This document shows, in pieces, positions 20,753 through 36,891 of a stretch of DNA of 64,000 nucleotides. This stretch comes from Promineifilum sp. (GTDB taxonomy: Bacteria > Chloroflexota > Anaerolineae > Promineifilales > Promineifilaceae), in assembly GCA_019454405.1 (NCBI GenBank), contig JACFOH010000007.1, positions 22,962 to 86,961 on the forward strand. Reading direction: 5' to 3'. Positions within the stretch are counted from its first letter, which is position 1. The number at the start of each line of letters is the position of its first letter. The notes below the pieces were generated by a model. That model was not told the DNA's origin and did not search any database. It saw only the letters and a list, made by a program, of their open reading frames with translations. A program made the translations under genes and the position numbers.

Positions 20753-22519
20753 CTACAGCTCTTCAACCGGGAATCCGGCCTTGACCTGCTCGGCATGTTG
20801 CAGGATCGATTCCGCTCCACTGACGGCTGAGTCGCCCTGCGTGCCCAACATAGCCGCCAGCTCGCGGATACGGCCACCCCTGTCCAGAGCGCTCACATGG
20901 GTCATGGTGCGGCCGTCGTGCACCGATTTACTCACATGAAAATGAGCGTCCCCATAGCCGGCCAGCTGCGGCAAGTGCGTGACGACAACGACCTGATGGT
21001 CGGCCTCAGCCGCCAACCGCCATAATTTTCGGCCAACGATGTCGCCGACGCGGCCGCCAATGCCCTGATCGATTTCATCGAAGATCAGCGTCGGGGCGCG
21101 ATCGACCTGAGCCAGGGCCGTCTTCAGCGCAAGCATCAGGCGCGCCGTTTCCCCGCCACTAGCTACTCGCGCCAGTGGCTTGAGCGGTTCGCCGGGATTG
21201 GCCGAGATGAGGAACTCAACCTGATCGAAGCCAGTTTGATCAAAAGAGAATCTTTGCTCGTCACCATCGACGGTGACATAGCAGCCATCGGCGGCGAGTT
21301 GAGTCTGAAAATCAACGCCGAAGCGCGCGCCCTCCATCTTGAGATCGGCCAGGTGGATTTCAACGGCCGCGGAGAGATGCTTCGCCGCGGCCTGGCGCTT
21401 TTCAGACAAGGCCGCGGCCATTCGTCCGATATGGCGCAAATAGGCTTCTTGCTCGGACTCAAGCTCGGCCGTGCGCACCTCGCTGTTCTCCAGCGTTTCG
21501 ATCTCTACTGTGGCCCGTTCGGCGGCCGATAACAACCCCGCGATCCCGGCCTCGCCATATTTCCGCTTCAGTTCGCTGATCAGTTCCAGCCGCGCTTCCA
21601 CACCATTGAGCCGCTGTGAATCGTATTCGAGCGAATCCAGGTAGTCGCGAAGCTCCGCGGCTATCTCGCCAAGCTGGAAGTTCAGCCCTTGCAGAGTGGC
21701 CAACGATTCCTCACGTGTTTCATCAAGTTTGGCCAGTTGCCCCATAGCGTGCTCAGCGCGCCCCAGCAAGTCGACAACCGCCGGTCGCTCCTCATCGACG
21801 GCCATCAACAGGGCGATGGCTTCGCCGGCAAAACGACCTAACTGTTCAGCATTGGCCAGCCGCACGCGCTCGATGCGCAAGGTCTCTTCTTCGTCCGGCC
21901 GCAGAGCAGCGGCCGAGATCTCATCGGCCTTGAAGCGCAGCATCTCCAGCCTCTGGGCCATGTCGCGCCGGCTACGGTTCAGGTCGGCCAGTTCATGCTG
22001 AACAGCCCGAAGTCGCTGAACCTCGGCCGCAAGTTCGCGCCGCTGCGTATCGAGACCGCCGAACGCGTCGAGCAAAGGCAGGTGGGCGCGTGGTCTCAGC
22101 AGAGAAAGATGTTCGCCCTGGCCGTGGATATCAATGAGCGGATCGGCCACTTGCCGCAACACGGACAGGCCGACCGTGCGGCCGTTCACCCGGCAGATGC
22201 TGCGGCCGTTGGCGCGGGTTTCGCGGGCTAGTACGACGTATTCTCCGTCGCCCTCGTCCAGCCCCTCACTCTCCAGAACGGGTTGCAGGGTTTCCAGCAA
22301 TACCGGATCGAGCCGGAAAGTAGCTTCAACGTAGGCCTCGTCACTGCCGGCGCGTACAATCGTCGTGTCCGCACGGCCGCCCAGCACCAGCGTGACGGCA
22401 TCCAGAATAATCGATTTACCAGCCCCGGTTTCACCGGTCAGAACGTTGAACCCGGCATCAAGCTGAAGTCGCAGCTCTTCAATGATCGCGAAATTGCGGA
22501 TGTACAATTCCGAAAGCAT
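20753..22519 (-). CDS. recN: DNA repair protein RecN
   Basis: An SMC-like ATPase acting in double-strand break repair. The Walker A motif is in GETGAGKSIILDAVTLVLGG near the N-terminus, two coiled-coil arms fill the middle, and the C-terminal half carries the ABC signature LARVASGGETARLMLALK and Walker B LIFDEIDQGIGGRVG. The length of 588 is normal for RecN. It is followed after 3 bp by the glycosylphosphotransferase and preceded by a zinc-finger membrane protein. Confidence 0.95.
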   Translation of the reverse strand: MLSELYIRNFAIIEELRLQLDAGFNVLTGETGAGKSIILDAVTLVLGGRADTTIVRAGSDEAYVEATFRLDPVLLETLQPVLESEGLDEGDGEYVVLARETRANGRSICRVNGRTVGLSVLRQVADPLIDIHGQGEHLSLLRPRAHLPLLDAFGGLDTQRRELAAEVQRLRAVQHELADLNRSRRDMAQRLEMLRFKADEISAAALRPDEEETLRIERVRLANAEQLGRFAGEAIALLMAVDEERPAVVDLLGRAEHAMGQLAKLDETREESLATLQGLNFQLGEIAAELRDYLDSLEYDSQRLNGVEARLELISELKRKYGEAGIAGLLSAAERATVEIETLENSEVRTAELESEQEAYLRHIGRMAAALSEKRQAAAKHLSAAVEIHLADLKMEGARFGVDFQTQLAADGCYVTVDGDEQRFSFDQTGFDQVEFLISANPGEPLKPLARVASGGETARLMLALKTALAQVDRAPTLIFDEIDQGIGGRVGDIVGRKLWRLAAEADHQVVVVTHLPQLAGYGDAHFHVSKSVHDGRTMTHVSALDRGGRIRELAAMLGTQGDSAVSGAESILQHAEQVKAGFPVEEL

Positions 22520-22532
22520 GGTATTCCCGATA

Positions 22533-23426
22533 TTAGCGCATCTGCCAGTAGGCCGCGCCGCCGGCGACGAAAAGGTAGATAGCCGGACCGATAAGCGACA
22601 GCAACCCGCCTAGATTCCCCATTAGAACAGCCAGGATAATCGGCCAGGCGGGAATGGCCACGCCAAGGATCATCATCGCCACGACGAGGCCCGGCAGGTA
22701 GCGGCCACGCCGGCCACCTATGGCCCGTTTCGTTATCCGGCCGATAGCTCCGCCGATCGCCCCGCCAAAGAAAAAGATCAGGAAGAAAAACAGAAACCCG
22801 CCCCTGAGATAGTGAACGATTAGATAGCCCGCCAGGAGGCTGATGGTTAACGAGACGAGCGCCGCGACCAGGTAATCGAGCGGCCGGCTATTGAAAAAAG
22901 CATCTTCAGCCTCGCGCCGACATTGGGGGCAAATATATCCGACCGGTGTCTTGACCGCGCAACTGCCGCAGATTGGCCGGCCGCAACTGTAACACCGCAA
23001 GGCCGTCATACGGTCGGGGTGGCGATAGCAAAACAACACCTCGCTCGCCTCTCCCACATGCGGAGCAGTCGATTCCTCCACCATATCCGTCCTGATCTCA
23101 GGTTCCGGCTCAGGAGGGTTCTTTTCGGCTTCGGCTGCGGCCAGGGCAGCCTCCACCTCAGGCGGCACCGGGCGACCGTCGAGCCGCGCCAATCCGGCAA
23201 TAGCTGCCGGCAAATCGGGCGCCAACTCCAGCGCGCGCTCGAATGCTGCACGCTTCTCCGTCGCGCCGCCCACTACACCTGCCAAGCCCAACCATGCCTC
23301 GGCGGTATCAGGCGCCTCGCTCAATATTTGTCGATAGGTCGATTCAGCCGCGGCGTTCTTGCCGTATTCCGCGTTGCGAGCAGCTTGCGCCAGCAAGGTA
23401 CGAATTCTCGGTTCAGTAAAAGCCAT
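22533..23426 (-). CDS. TPR-like, B-box-type zinc-finger, multi-pass membrane protein of unknown function
   Basis: A 297-residue three-part protein. Residues about 5-85 form TPR-like helices (AAESTYRQILSEAPDTAEAWLGLAG). A Pro/Glu linker leads to a zinc-finger cluster with Cys133, His136, Cys145, Cys148, Cys153, Cys156, Cys166 and Cys169, arranged like a B-box (FCYRHPDR...CYSCGRPIC). The C-terminal 115 residues are hydrophobic with four likely membrane segments and a basic loop. AAGGA precedes the ATG. The cytosolic TPR and zinc parts suggest a protein-protein platform at the membrane; the function is unknown. It is the neighbour of recN. Confidence 0.75.
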   Translation of the reverse strand: MAFTEPRIRTLLAQAARNAEYGKNAAAESTYRQILSEAPDTAEAWLGLAGVVGGATEKRAAFERALELAPDLPAAIAGLARLDGRPVPPEVEAALAAAEAEKNPPEPEPEIRTDMVEESTAPHVGEASEVLFCYRHPDRMTALRCYSCGRPICGSCAVKTPVGYICPQCRREAEDAFFNSRPLDYLVAALVSLTISLLAGYLIVHYLRGGFLFFFLIFFFGGAIGGAIGRITKRAIGGRRGRYLPGLVVAMMILGVAIPAWPIILAVLMGNLGGLLSLIGPAIYLFVAGGAAYWQMR

Positions 23427-23509
23427 TCAATCCTTCTTAACTGACAAGTGATTTCGATCGATTTTCGGCAGAAACCATAAATCCTCTATCAGAATCTCAT
23501 GAGCGCCAA

Positions 23510-24379
23510 CTAAGGGCGACTGTCGCGGCTGGGGCCGATACCCAGGTGTGGCCAACTGAATCCCAGCCGCCCCATCAACCGACGATAGAAGTAGCCCGGG
23601 CTTTCTACTCTGGCGAAACTACACGTGCGTTCGTGGCGGGCGATAACGATTTCATCGCCATCGGCTACCGGGGTGCTCTTCTGGCCATCAGCCGTCAGGA
23701 ACGCCTCGTGGCTCATTTCTACCTGTATCGCGATGCGCGCGTTCTCGTGCAATACCAACGAGCGATTCAAACTGAGATGCGCCGCCACCGGCACGACGAC
23801 CAGGTTTTGTAGCTGCGGCGGCATGAGCGGGCCGCCGGCAGCCATCGCGTAGGCGGTTGAGCCGGTTGGCGTCGACACGATGAGCGCGTCAGCGATATAG
23901 GTCGTCACCAGGTCACCATCCACGCGCAGATGCAGATGAACCACGCGTGCCTGGGACCCGCGCCCGATCACCACTTCGTTGAGCGCCGAAAACGGCGCGA
24001 TCATCTGCCCATCCCGCCATAGCTCGGCATGAAGCATTAGACGCCTCTCAATCCAGAACTCCCCGTTCAACACTCGCTCCAGCTTCTCTGGCCAATCTTC
24101 CGGCGTCGCCTCGCTCAGGAAGCCCACGCGGCCGACGTTGATGACGAAGATAGGCACCCCATAAGGCACCGTCCAACGGGCCGCTCGCAGCGTCGATCCG
24201 TCGCCACCAAGTACTACGACCAACGATGTCCCCTCCAACCGGCCATCAATATCTTCATCATCCATGGGCGCGGCCGACCATACATCGATGCCGCGCGCCG
24301 TCAGCCAGGCCTGTACCTTCTCAGCCAAAGGCAAGGATTCAGCAATACGAGGTTGTCCTATAATACCAATCGGGTTCAT
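23510..24379 (-). CDS. nadK: NAD kinase
   Basis: Phosphorylates NAD to NADP. It carries the NAD kinase glycine motif VVLGGDGSTLRAARW, the NVGRVGFLSE stretch and the NE/D plus GSTAYAMAAGGPLMPP substrate-site motif. I start at the ATG giving MNPIGIIGQPRI, which matches where family members begin. In-frame GTG (24397) and TTG (24412) codons lie upstream and none has a good Shine-Dalgarno sequence. About 289 residues, normal length. Confidence 0.93.
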   Translation of the reverse strand: MNPIGIIGQPRIAESLPLAEKVQAWLTARGIDVWSAAPMDDEDIDGRLEGTSLVVVLGGDGSTLRAARWTVPYGVPIFVINVGRVGFLSEATPEDWPEKLERVLNGEFWIERRLMLHAELWRDGQMIAPFSALNEVVIGRGSQARVVHLHLRVDGDLVTTYIADALIVSTPTGSTAYAMAAGGPLMPPQLQNLVVVPVAAHLSLNRSLVLHENARIAIQVEMSHEAFLTADGQKSTPVADGDEIVIARHERTCSFARVESPGYFYRRLMGRLGFSWPHLGIGPSRDSRP

Positions 24380-24434
24380 CGGGAGGAGTTCGTTCACACT
24401 ATGGATCGCCAACGGTCAATCGCCGGCATTTGTT

Positions 24435-25718
24435 TTATTCGCTCAATCGCTCTTCCAGCCATGCGGCGATTCGCTCAACCGGCATACGGGTTTGCTCCTC
24501 GCCATCAGCCAGCGGTTTCACCGTCACTTCACCCTGCGCTAGCTCGTCGTCACCGATGATGAGTACGTAGCGAGCATCATGGCGGCCGGCCTCGCGCATC
24601 TGGCTTTTCATACTGCGGCCACGGCGAGCGAAAGCCAGCCGCGCGCCGATCCCGGCCCCGCGCAATTCAAAGGCCAATTTCACGGCCGCGGACTTCGTGG
24701 CGCCGCCGAAATGCGCCACCAGCACCGGCAGCGGCGCAGCAGACGGAGGTTCCACCCCCTGCTCCTTCATACCCAGAATGATGCGCTCGATGCCACTGCC
24801 AAAGCCGACACTGGGCGTTGGCGGGCCACCGATATCTTCGGCTAGCCCGTCATAACGGCCGCCGCCACATAAAGCCGCCTGGGCGCCGATGCCTTCTTGC
24901 CACACTTCAAAAACGGTCTTGGTGTAATAATCGATCCCGCGCACCAGGCGGTAGTTTTCGGCATACGATTGCCCTAGCGCCTCCAGCAGGCTGCGCACTT
25001 CCGCATAATGTTCGCGGCAATCGTCGCAAAGGTGATCCGCGATATGCGGCGCGCCCCCCAGAAGTTCATCCATACCCGGGGCCTTGCTGTCGAGTACGCG
25101 CAAAGGGTTCTTGGTCAAGCGCTCTTTGTCAATATCAGCCAGTTTGTCGATATGGTCGTTCAGATAAGCTACCAACTTCTGGATATAGCCCGGCTTGCAA
25201 ACTCGACAGCCGGTGCTATTAATCTGGAAAGTCAACCCCTTGAAACCCAGCTCGCGAAAGAGATTCATCGCAACCATCATGACTTCGACATCGGCCGCCG
25301 GATCGTCTTCTCCCATGATCTCGCAATCGAACTGGCTATGCTGGCGCAGGCGGCCGGCTTGAGGGCGCTCGCGCCGGAAGCTGGGGCCGATGGTGTAAAT
25401 CTTCACCGGCTGGGGCCAGCTGGGCATACCGTTCTGGATATAAGCACGCACGAGGCCCGCGGTAAACTCCGGGCGCAGAGTAATGCTGGAGTCGTCCGCT
25501 TCCTGGATCGTGTACATCTCTTTTTGGACGAAAAAATCGGAGCCTTCGCCCACACCGCGGATAAACAGTTCCGTGGCCTCGATGATGGGCGTATCAACTC
25601 GCTGGAAGCCGTAGCGGCGGGCCAGGTTTTCGGCCGTGGCGATAATCAGATCCCAATATGGACGATCGTCGGGCAGGACGTCGTGCATACCGGTCAATCG
25701 CTGGATTTGTTTCGACAA
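24435..25718 (-). CDS. hisS: Histidyl-tRNA synthetase
   Basis: Charges tRNA-His. Class II motifs are present: the N-terminal GMHDVLP, motif 2 FRRERPQAGRLRQHSQFD, the histidine-specific LVRGIDYYTKTVFEVW and motif 3 GFGSGIERII. The C-terminal anticodon-binding domain starts PLPVLVAHFG. The chosen start is TTG 25718 (MSKQIQRLTG) because GGAGGT lies 4-5 nt upstream; TTG 25739 and GTG 25730 would place that Shine-Dalgarno sequence inside the gene. It has four cysteines in an insertion (CRVCKPGY and CDDCREHY), perhaps a zinc site, seen in some bacterial HisRS. Confidence 0.95.
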   Translation of the reverse strand: MSKQIQRLTGMHDVLPDDRPYWDLIIATAENLARRYGFQRVDTPIIEATELFIRGVGEGSDFFVQKEMYTIQEADDSSITLRPEFTAGLVRAYIQNGMPSWPQPVKIYTIGPSFRRERPQAGRLRQHSQFDCEIMGEDDPAADVEVMMVAMNLFRELGFKGLTFQINSTGCRVCKPGYIQKLVAYLNDHIDKLADIDKERLTKNPLRVLDSKAPGMDELLGGAPHIADHLCDDCREHYAEVRSLLEALGQSYAENYRLVRGIDYYTKTVFEVWQEGIGAQAALCGGGRYDGLAEDIGGPPTPSVGFGSGIERIILGMKEQGVEPPSAAPLPVLVAHFGGATKSAAVKLAFELRGAGIGARLAFARRGRSMKSQMREAGRHDARYVLIIGDDELAQGEVTVKPLADGEEQTRMPVERIAAWLEERLSE

Positions 25719-25827
25719 GTAGACCTCCACAGGCGGCAAACGAGTCGCAACTCGGCCGTCGTCAATGACTAATCAGGGTATTATACAGGGAAAAAGAGGA
25801 ATTGGCCGAGGTTGAGCCGGGGAAGGA

Positions 25828-26370
25828 TCAGGCCAAGCGACGATTGCACGCCGCACGCACACCACAAGCGCGGCAGCGTCGGGGGTCATTATGGTCAGGT
25901 TCGGGATCAAGCTCCTCGCGAGTGGCTCGCATGTCATCCAGCAGGTCAAGCAGGTCGGCCTCAAGCTCGTCGGTGTAATCAATAGCAAAAGCGTGATTTT
26001 CGTATTGAATAATGCCGTAGGGCGGCCGCACACCATAGTTCTCCTCGACCAGCAGACAATAGGCGGCCAATTGCAGCACATGCCCATCCCGAGGCGCGTC
26101 GCGAACGGAGCCTGATTTAAGCTCGACCGGAATGATCGTCCCGTCATTTTGCTCAACAAGGTAATCAGGTTTGCCCACCAGCCGAACCCCGGCGGCATGA
26201 AGCACGTCGCGATTGGCACGCCATGCTCCGGTATCGGTGTAGATGACATCCCCTTCCGGCAAGCCGCTTTCGACTCTCATCTGACGTCCCCGGAATAACA
26301 GGGTGACCGCCAGGAGCGCGAGAAAGAGCACCAGCGCCAAAGGAAGCCCGCTCATGAACATGCTCATCAT
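25828..26370 (-). CDS. Cas4/RecB-like PD-(D/E)XK nuclease core with N-terminal membrane anchor (second half of split protein)
   Basis: A 180-residue protein starting at ATG 26370. A single hydrophobic helix (about 9-26) precedes a nuclease core with GKPDYL (Asp69), PVELKSG (Glu83, Lys85) and QLAAY (Gln100, Tyr104). The C-terminus has CRACGVRAAC, giving Cys166, Cys169 and Cys175. These are the Cas4 motifs II, III and QxxxY and three of its four iron-sulfur cysteines. The missing N-terminal cysteine and motif I histidine are on the ORF immediately upstream, in another frame, ending 25 nt before this start. No CRISPR array or other cas gene is in the window. The role is unknown; DNA-end processing at the membrane is a guess. 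Confidence 0.75.
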   Translation of the reverse strand: MMSMFMSGLPLALVLFLALLAVTLLFRGRQMRVESGLPEGDVIYTDTGAWRANRDVLHAAGVRLVGKPDYLVEQNDGTIIPVELKSGSVRDAPRDGHVLQLAAYCLLVEENYGVRPPYGIIQYENHAFAIDYTDELEADLLDLLDDMRATREELDPEPDHNDPRRCRACGVRAACNRRLA

Positions 26371-26395
26371 CGTTATTTGTGCCGGGTCAATAGGC

Positions 26396-26635
26396 TCAGC
26401 CAGACAGAAGCTGGAAGACGAGGACCGCCACCGCACAGAATAGCACCAGATAGGCCAAGCGACGTGTCCAGACAGACCGTTCGACAAGGCGACCGTGGCG
26501 TTCATGATAGGCCGTCCCCGCTTGCATCTCGGCCACGTGGGTGGAAGCTACAGAGCGCACGCGCCGCAGCCACCATGCCCGACGGCAATAGACGTAATCG
26601 TCGATCTCGCTAGCACGAATCCATTGATAGCTCAT
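26396..26635 (-). CDS. Cas4-like N-terminal domain with C-terminal membrane anchor (first half of split protein)
   Basis: A 79-residue ORF from ATG 26635. It opens with the Cas4 N-terminal pattern: YVYCRRAWW with Cys17, then AGTAYHERHG with His44 (motif I). It ends in a hydrophobic helix (about 60-77). The downstream ORF starts with its own hydrophobic helix and carries the rest of the nuclease. The pair together would give a complete Cas4-like active site and four-cysteine cluster, with a membrane hairpin inserted between the first helix and the core. The two ORFs are in different frames. They may be two real subunits, a recoded gene or a sequence error; both halves look intact. Confidence 0.7.
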   Translation of the reverse strand: MSYQWIRASEIDDYVYCRRAWWLRRVRSVASTHVAEMQAGTAYHERHGRLVERSVWTRRLAYLVLFCAVAVLVFQLLSG

Positions 26636-35483: not shown

Positions 35484-36041
35484 CTAACCCATTTCGGGTT
35501 GGAGCAATCCAAACGACCCGTCACGACGACGATAGAGCACGTTCACCGCGTCGTCGTTAGCGTTGAAAAATACGTAGAAATCGTGGCCAAGCAGTTCCAT
35601 CTGATCGATGGCCTCCTCCGGGGACATGGGGTGGAGGGCAAAGCGCTTGAAACGCACAATGTCCTGCTCTTCCTCGACAAATTCTTCGGCGATCGGTAAA
35701 GGCTCGCCCAGCTCCAGTTCTTCCCCTTTACCGCGCACCTTACGCCGTTTCTTGCCCCGATAACGTTCAATCTGGCGGTAAAGTTTGTCTACAACGGCAT
35801 CAATGGCGGCAAACATATCGCTGTTTCGTTCTTCAGCACGAAGGATAGTGCCGCGCTCATCGCGAATGGTGATCTCCGCTACATGACGCTGAACGGCGCT
35901 GCGCGTGTTTTCCATGGCTAGTTCGACCTGAACACTGGAAAGATTAGGGAGATAGCGATCCAACCGCGCCGTTTTCTTCTCCACATAATCGCGCAACCGT
36001 GGAGTTACTTCCATATTATTTGAGAAGATCTGTAGTTCCAT
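35484..36041 (-). CDS. hpf: Ribosome hibernation promoting factor, long form
   Basis: Binds the 30S decoding region and dimerises 70S ribosomes to 100S in stationary phase. The N-terminal S30AE domain opens MELQIFSNNMEVTPRLRDYVEKK and has the RAEERNSDMFAAIDAVVDKLYRQIERYR helix. The C-terminal dimerisation domain is present (FALHPMSPEEAIDQMELLGHDFYVFFNANDDAVNVLYRRRDGSFGLLQP). The 185-residue length identifies the long HPF class. Confidence 0.95.
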   Translation of the reverse strand: MELQIFSNNMEVTPRLRDYVEKKTARLDRYLPNLSSVQVELAMENTRSAVQRHVAEITIRDERGTILRAEERNSDMFAAIDAVVDKLYRQIERYRGKKRRKVRGKGEELELGEPLPIAEEFVEEEQDIVRFKRFALHPMSPEEAIDQMELLGHDFYVFFNANDDAVNVLYRRRDGSFGLLQPEMG

Positions 36042-36150: not shown

Positions 36151-36891
36151 CTAGCTAACCCGCGCCAAACAATAGGCCGAGACGCTTGCCGCGCCGGCGG
36201 ATAACAAGGCTTCGGCCGCCGACCGCATAGTGGCGCCGGTGGTCAACACGTCATCGACCAGCAATATATGGTGGCCGGCAACGCATGGATCGGCCGAGAA
36301 AGCGCCGCGCACGTTGTCGCGTCGCTCCTCCGGCCCCAGGCCAACCTGCGGTATTGTGTGACGCACTCGATGCAGGGCCTTGGGCGCAAAGGCAATACCC
36401 AGAGCCTGGCTCAACGGGCGCGCCAGCAACGCGGATTGATTATAGCCGCGTCGCCTCTGCCGCCGCGGATGCAACGGGATGGGCAGGACAAGATCAAGCG
36501 GCTGCTCCCAGGCAGGCCACCCAGTGATCAGATATTCAGCCAATGGTTCCGCCAGGGCGAAATACCCCTCATATTTGAATCGGTGGATCACCTGATCGAG
36601 CGGGCTCTGATAGCGTAATGGAGCGCGCATCTGCGCCACAGGCGAAGGGTGTTGCCGACACTCTTGGCAAAGTCCGTCATGAGCATGTTCAACGGCGAAC
36701 TTCTGAAAACGGCCACATCGGAAGCAAATAGAGTCAGGCACGGCAACCATCTGGCCCCGGCAATCGGAGCACAAGATCGGCCCCATCCGCCGGCAATGAA
36801 CACAGACAGGCGGGAATACGACATCCCATACGAATGCCAGCCAGTGACGCAATCGAGCGCCGGTGTTGGCCCGGGCCTCAGGATCAATCAC
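36151..36891 (-). CDS. comF: ComF family phosphoribosyltransferase-like protein
   Basis: ComF proteins are needed for DNA uptake in transformable bacteria. The N-terminus has zinc-type cysteine pairs (CVHCRRMG, CSDCRGQ, CFRCGRF, CQECRQ). The middle and C-terminal part is a PRTase-like domain with the PRPP loop VLLVDDVLTTGATMRSA and the RRRGYNQSALLARPL segment. The start is a GTG at 36891 whose GTGA overlaps the stop of the upstream small gene, so translation is coupled. 246 residues, full length. Confidence 0.92.
   Translation of the reverse strand: MIDPEARANTGARLRHWLAFVWDVVFPPVCVHCRRMGPILCSDCRGQMVAVPDSICFRCGRFQKFAVEHAHDGLCQECRQHPSPVAQMRAPLRYQSPLDQVIHRFKYEGYFALAEPLAEYLITGWPAWEQPLDLVLPIPLHPRRQRRRGYNQSALLARPLSQALGIAFAPKALHRVRHTIPQVGLGPEERRDNVRGAFSADPCVAGHHILLVDDVLTTGATMRSAAEALLSAGAASVSAYCLARVS

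Follow-up and report, generated by a model that had tools for sequence, protein, structure and literature searches.

Two short ORFs on the reverse strand of the analyzed DNA very probably encode two single-pass subunits of one membrane-bound, Cas4-type nuclease, which is vertically inherited and acts outside CRISPR adaptation. Cas4 is known as a soluble one-chain nuclease; here, two membrane proteins each contribute part of both its active site and its iron-sulfur site, and they are inherited through much of the phylum even though their genes can be unlinked. In the window (the whole 64,000-nucleotide stretch that we analyzed), ORF1 (26396–26635, reverse strand, stop included; 79 aa) represents the N-terminal half of Cas4. 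ORF2 (25828–26370, reverse strand, stop included; 180 aa) comprises an N-terminal membrane helix, a PD-(D/E)XK core, and three cysteines. The coordinates confirm the 25-nt spacing and the differing frames noted in an earlier sequence-only reading of this DNA: the spacer covers 26371–26395 (reverse strand) and shifts the frame by +1. The ORF2 frame is open upstream to 26505, but conservation among homologues ends at about 26370, and we therefore consider this position the likely start.

Within ORF1, Cys17, the fourth iron-sulfur ligand, and His44 of motif I (26504–26587) precede a C-terminal membrane helix at about residues 60–78 (26402–26458). In ORF2, the membrane helix at about residues 4–25 (26296–26361) is followed by the catalytic core with Asp69, Glu83, Lys85, Gln100, and Tyr104 (26059–26166) and by Cys166, Cys169, and Cys175, arranged as C-x2-C-x5-C (25846–25875; all on the reverse strand). 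Translation thus places every residue and helix of both ORFs where the sequence-only reading had put them. The Cas4 active-site set (motif I His, motif II Asp, motif III Glu-x-Lys, and motif IV Gln-x3-Tyr) is complete and divided over the two chains, as is the four-cysteine set, with one N-terminal cysteine on ORF1 and three C-terminal cysteines on ORF2, which are predicted to bind a cluster. C17, W21, G40, and H44 are invariant in an alignment of 38 ORF1 homologues, and D69, E83, K85, Q100, Y104, C166, C169, and C175 in an alignment of 44 ORF2 homologues. Because of this invariance, the residue pattern is, as judged from the sequences, far from chance, and the proposal that the two ORFs jointly hold a full Cas4-type set of residues stands. 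Within the genus, both halves are under purifying selection (dN 0.1–0.3 versus dS 0.7 to >2).

Curated family models place the two halves colinearly, each as a part of Cas4. TIGR00372 (cut-off 65 bits) matches ORF1 with its positions 2–49 (E = 1.9e-6, 27.8 bits) and ORF2 with its positions 52–179 (E = 8.9e-18, 64.7 bits), and PF01930 (cut-off 22.7 bits) assigns 37.5 bits to ORF2 and 17.6 bits to ORF1. As expected of fragments, one half exceeds the Pfam cut-off and neither exceeds that of NCBIfam. Annotation pipelines would probably name ORF2 alone and record ORF1 only as a small hypothetical protein, which could make the enzyme look truncated.

Hydropathy and charge indicate complementary, opposite topologies in 37 of 38 ORF1s and 40 of 44 ORF2s. 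In ORF1, basic residues precede the helix and a median of two residues follow it (N-in/C-out), whereas the ORF2 helix lies at the start of the protein with basic residues after it (N-out/C-in). Accordingly, both soluble parts should be cytoplasmic, and the two helices could pair as a hairpin. The halves also match different parts of a solved Cas4 (8d3l), ORF1 its residues 8–62 (a weak match, E = 0.025) and ORF2 its residues 102–202 (E = 1e-7). For structure prediction, the same-genus in-frame pair L051 was joined by reading its TAG stop as Gln, a modeling device that implies no read-through, and the alignment supplied contained seven other in-frame pairs together with single-half homologues. 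The resulting model (mean pLDDT 91.8, pTM 0.87) contains a motif I helix that is continuous with the membrane helix (residues 34–78) and a second long helix (94–120) that returns to the core, in agreement with the earlier suggestion of a membrane hairpin between helix 1 and the core. The model has the Cas4 fold and superimposes end to end on 7mi4 Cas4 (Z 19.9, rmsd 2.7, 183 residues) and on 8d3l (Z 18.7), and is less close to AdnA, SSO0001, EXO5, Dna2, and ACE1. In the model, the two halves thus form a complete Cas4 in which a helical hairpin separates the core from the N-terminal helices; since the joined chain forces the halves into proximity, the model alone does not prove that the separate chains associate.

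These features suggest a mechanism in which ORF1 and ORF2 would each cross the membrane once and expose almost nothing outside the cell. The helix at the end of ORF1 would pair in the membrane with the one at the start of ORF2, and the N-terminal helices of ORF1, with Cys17 and His44, would dock on the PD-(D/E)XK core of ORF2 at the cytoplasmic face. Such docking would generate one complete active site, in which the His joins the Asp, Glu, and Lys as well as the Gln and Tyr, and one complete four-cysteine iron-sulfur site (one plus three). We infer this physical assembly of the halves, cluster binding, and nuclease activity. The assembled enzyme would then process single-stranded DNA or DNA ends beside the membrane, most likely at its inner face, as a vertically inherited housekeeping function outside CRISPR adaptation.

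Families outside the window's class provide further indications that the halves function together. In one divergent family, L200 (339 aa) and L209 (330 aa), from different genera, are single-ORF fusions whose two membrane helices lie next to each other, and these natural fusions strengthen the reading of the halves as one machine. In all other genomes examined, there are two membrane-anchored chains and not the soluble single polypeptide usual for Cas4. Moreover, the catalytic residues of the two chains tend to be kept or lost jointly. In the divergent set, all 13 genomes that retain the ORF1 His keep the ORF2 Asp/Glu/Lys, and eight of the nine genomes without it are changed at at least one of these three positions (P = 3e-5 by genome, 7e-5 without the ambiguous G080, and 0.015 by genus, uncorrected for phylogeny and with histidine calls made by eye on printed sequences). 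Nearly all members of the divergent set keep the cysteines, an indication that the iron-sulfur scaffold is important even where catalysis is lost.

Such losses raise the alternative that the conserved function of the assembled chains is that of a membrane scaffold that holds an iron-sulfur cluster or binds DNA, such as a sensor of redox state or of DNA, and that nuclease activity is of lesser importance or has disappeared. Several divergent genomes, which lose the ORF1 His and the ORF2 Asp/Glu/Lys while preserving the cysteines and membrane helices, agree with this view and show that nuclease activity is not the sole possible function. However, the catalytic residues are invariant in all aligned homologues of the class Anaerolineae, including those in the window, and a full active site so strongly conserved would hardly be expected without catalysis; as a general account, we therefore regard the scaffold as improbable. 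Somewhat more plausible, though still tentative, is a combined version in which the pair would be a conserved gatekeeper nuclease for DNA or RNA at the inner membrane face, complete only once both chains come together, and a nuclease-dead iron-sulfur form might sense redox state or DNA at the membrane in some lineages. The loci with catalytic residues lost on both chains and cysteines and membrane helices kept are L169, L173, L174, L200, L206, L209, L210, and L213, and their products are, by sequence, possible nuclease-dead iron-sulfur membrane proteins.

The Cas4 fold and motifs, together with the presence of Cas1 in 19 of the 32 carriers in the class, could indicate that the pair is a membrane-bound replacement for CRISPR-associated Cas4 that serves adaptation in trans. 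We consider this very unlikely, because in the other 13 carriers, namely the source genome (71% complete) and 12 more, Cas1 was not detected, and because several genomes additionally encode an ordinary one-chain Cas4 adjoining Cas1 (e.g., on contig C169 of G275). A neighbor survey of the loci shows no recurrent cas gene family beside the pair, which in the window is not encoded with cas1/cas2 or an array, as a CRISPR-associated Cas4 would be. Consistent with the earlier remark that the window lacks cas genes and arrays, its 64,000 nt contain no direct repeats at array-like spacing, and among the PADLOC matches listed for its 46 proteins (25 of 79 families), the only Cas model is Cas4, on ORF2. 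Given the carriers without detectable Cas1, the pair is independent of CRISPR.

The two-chain, membrane-bound nuclease is further supported by the distribution of the split. An ORF2 match was found in 53 of 59 genomes (the source genome and relatives), and coordinates were worked out for 38 ORF1/ORF2 pairs from the window's family and class. All 38 consist of two ORFs, 31 of them adjacent and seven with another gene in between. The spacers of the adjacent pairs range from −10 to +90 nt, and their frame relations are 0, +1, and +2 in 4, 10, and 17 cases, respectively; even the same-genus loci L001–L007 include all three frames and spacers of 21–83 nt. The two-ORF state thus extends from the window's family across the class, and it is also found in other Chloroflexota families. 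Unlinked halves occur in eight genomes: in G048, they lie 2.8 Mb apart on one contig; in G340, 0.89 Mb apart on opposite strands; and in G041, G314, G208, G335, G328, and G153, on different contigs.

Two ORFs that encode one fold in the correct order, and the two in-frame fusions of the divergent family, might also be explained by a single protein made through programmed frameshifting or stop-codon read-through. This is highly improbable, as frame relation and spacer vary even inside the genus, several families have an intervening gene, and the split cannot depend on recoding where the halves are unlinked; there, two genes are retained together without linkage. Finally, the adjacency of the window's halves in different frames 25 nt apart would suit a solo-Cas4 gene broken by a frameshift, pseudogenization, or an assembly error, an explanation that we effectively dismiss, since every located pair is split likewise, in all frame relations, with intervening genes or unlinked halves, since purifying selection acts on both halves, and since intact one-chain genes were not found in close relatives. 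The sequence-only reading had left room for a recoded or broken gene and had named uninterrupted single ORFs in close relatives as evidence against a genuine split; the search of related Chloroflexota with each half instead returned two ORFs consistently, adjacent or unlinked, no single ORF among the 38 family and class pairs, and the two distant fusions as the only exceptions. As no frame relation is kept and many independently assembled genomes share it, the split is old and real, and no error. These split homologues support the membrane-tethered, two-subunit Cas4-like system without CRISPR that had been proposed, in which the halves would bind each other and cut DNA.

In a phylum sample of 301 genomes searched with a profile of each half, ORF1 accompanied a strong ORF2 (E ≤ 1e-43) in 61 of 61 cases (not corrected for phylogeny), and ORF2 was present in 61 of the 62 genomes with ORF1, the exception being the draft G119 (82% complete), where ORF1 alone was found. 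Both halves are absent from six genomes of the class. Their co-retention even when the genes are far apart suggests a membrane-bound role unrelated to CRISPR. The distribution of the pair looks vertical. The nearest named relatives include Promineifilum MAGs, with up to 78% identity, and in a scan of 84,980 species that rested on one peptide pattern, the best 80 of 246 matches carry Chloroflexota-type titles, except for one "uncultured bacterium"; the genome-level searches covered Chloroflexota. Viral contigs yielded one relative, which is short and weak, and plasmids yielded only partial matches to one-chain proteins. A second copy of the pair, L168 (G282:C30:248300-254700), is apparently broken, with ORF2 interrupted by a stop; the same genome also has an intact pair, L167.

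Solo-Cas4, encoded outside CRISPR loci, has been reported as monophyletic in many Chloroflexi (PMC5704561), so the family as such is already known. Solo-Cas4 shares with the pair Cas4 motifs I–IV, the four cysteines, the absence of CRISPR neighbors, and vertical inheritance, and the Chloroflexi sequences of that study may include ORF2; its text, as searched, describes no split, membrane helix, or ORF1, in contrast to the two membrane-anchored chains found here. Literature searches for split or membrane-anchored Cas4 gave nothing relevant. What appears to be new are the two membrane-anchored chains, their unlinked retention, the natural fusions, and the joint catalytic loss on both chains. CRISPR-associated Cas4 and Cas4/Cas1 fusions (8d3l, 7mi4) resemble the joined model most closely in fold (Z 18.7–19.9, end to end), but they are single soluble chains acting with Cas1–Cas2, whereas the pair consists of two membrane chains without cas neighbors and often without detectable Cas1. 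The Argonaute-associated Cas4 family protein ACE1 (9iac, 9iab) is likewise non-CRISPR and has a related fold (Z about 12), but is one chain, and no Argonaute family recurs among the neighbors of the pair. The nuclease domains of Dna2, AdnA/AddB, and EXO5 share the superfamily fold, in which an N-terminal part packs against the PD-(D/E)XK core (Z 10–15), but reside in larger or soluble proteins, whereas the pair forms two membrane subunits; its sequence is nearer to Cas4 proper, as reflected by the score of ORF2 on TIGR00372. The pair offers a natural two-part system for determining the function of solo-Cas4 and the cellular site at which it acts.

The genes around the pair in the window are housekeeping genes. 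A hisS-like gene (24435–25739, reverse strand), which is a recurrent neighbor, lies downstream, followed by nadK, TPR protein, and recN-like genes (20753–24412, reverse strand), and a BrkB-type membrane protein gene and a recJ-like gene lie upstream. This downstream order of hisS, nadK, TPR, and recN recurs in relatives, with each gene found at 23–30 loci, and forms the context of the enzyme. In other families, ORF1 directly follows a TRAX/translin-like gene, often with an overlap (25 of 77 loci with room upstream), which matches archaeal AfTrax (E = 6e-36) and is a real homologue; ssb and a DUF3467 gene are found further upstream in some loci. Although a recurrent neighbor, the TRAX/translin-like gene is not a proven partner: It is present in 166 of 301 genomes, many of them without the pair. 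Co-occurrence with ComEC was likewise uninformative about a connection with DNA uptake (269 of 301 genomes have ComEC, carriers or not). The TRAX, ssb, and DUF3467 neighbors are compatible with a function in single-stranded nucleic-acid metabolism without settling the role, because TRAX and ComEC are both widespread without the pair, and no conserved neighbor fixes the cellular role. Speculatively, the two likeliest roles are the processing of DNA on its entry through the membrane and the turnover of DNA ends or flaps. At 23 loci within L086–L122, the TRAX/translin-like gene often lies directly upstream of, or overlaps, ORF1, and that of the source genome is on another contig (G000:C105:11868-12497).

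The gene between the halves in L028, the only one so tested, encodes an L,D-transpeptidase (Pfam, E = 8e-21), and genes of this YkuD type also separate the halves in L029, L032, L034, L035, L038, and L044. In seven further loci (L090, L092, L093, L109, L113, L119, and L160), partly on the same contigs as earlier ones, the stretch that separates the halves contains a YkuD motif. Elsewhere in the window, an ordinary ComF-like phosphoribosyltransferase with a double zinc ribbon (36151–36891) is encoded next to a ribosome-hibernation factor gene (35484–36041).
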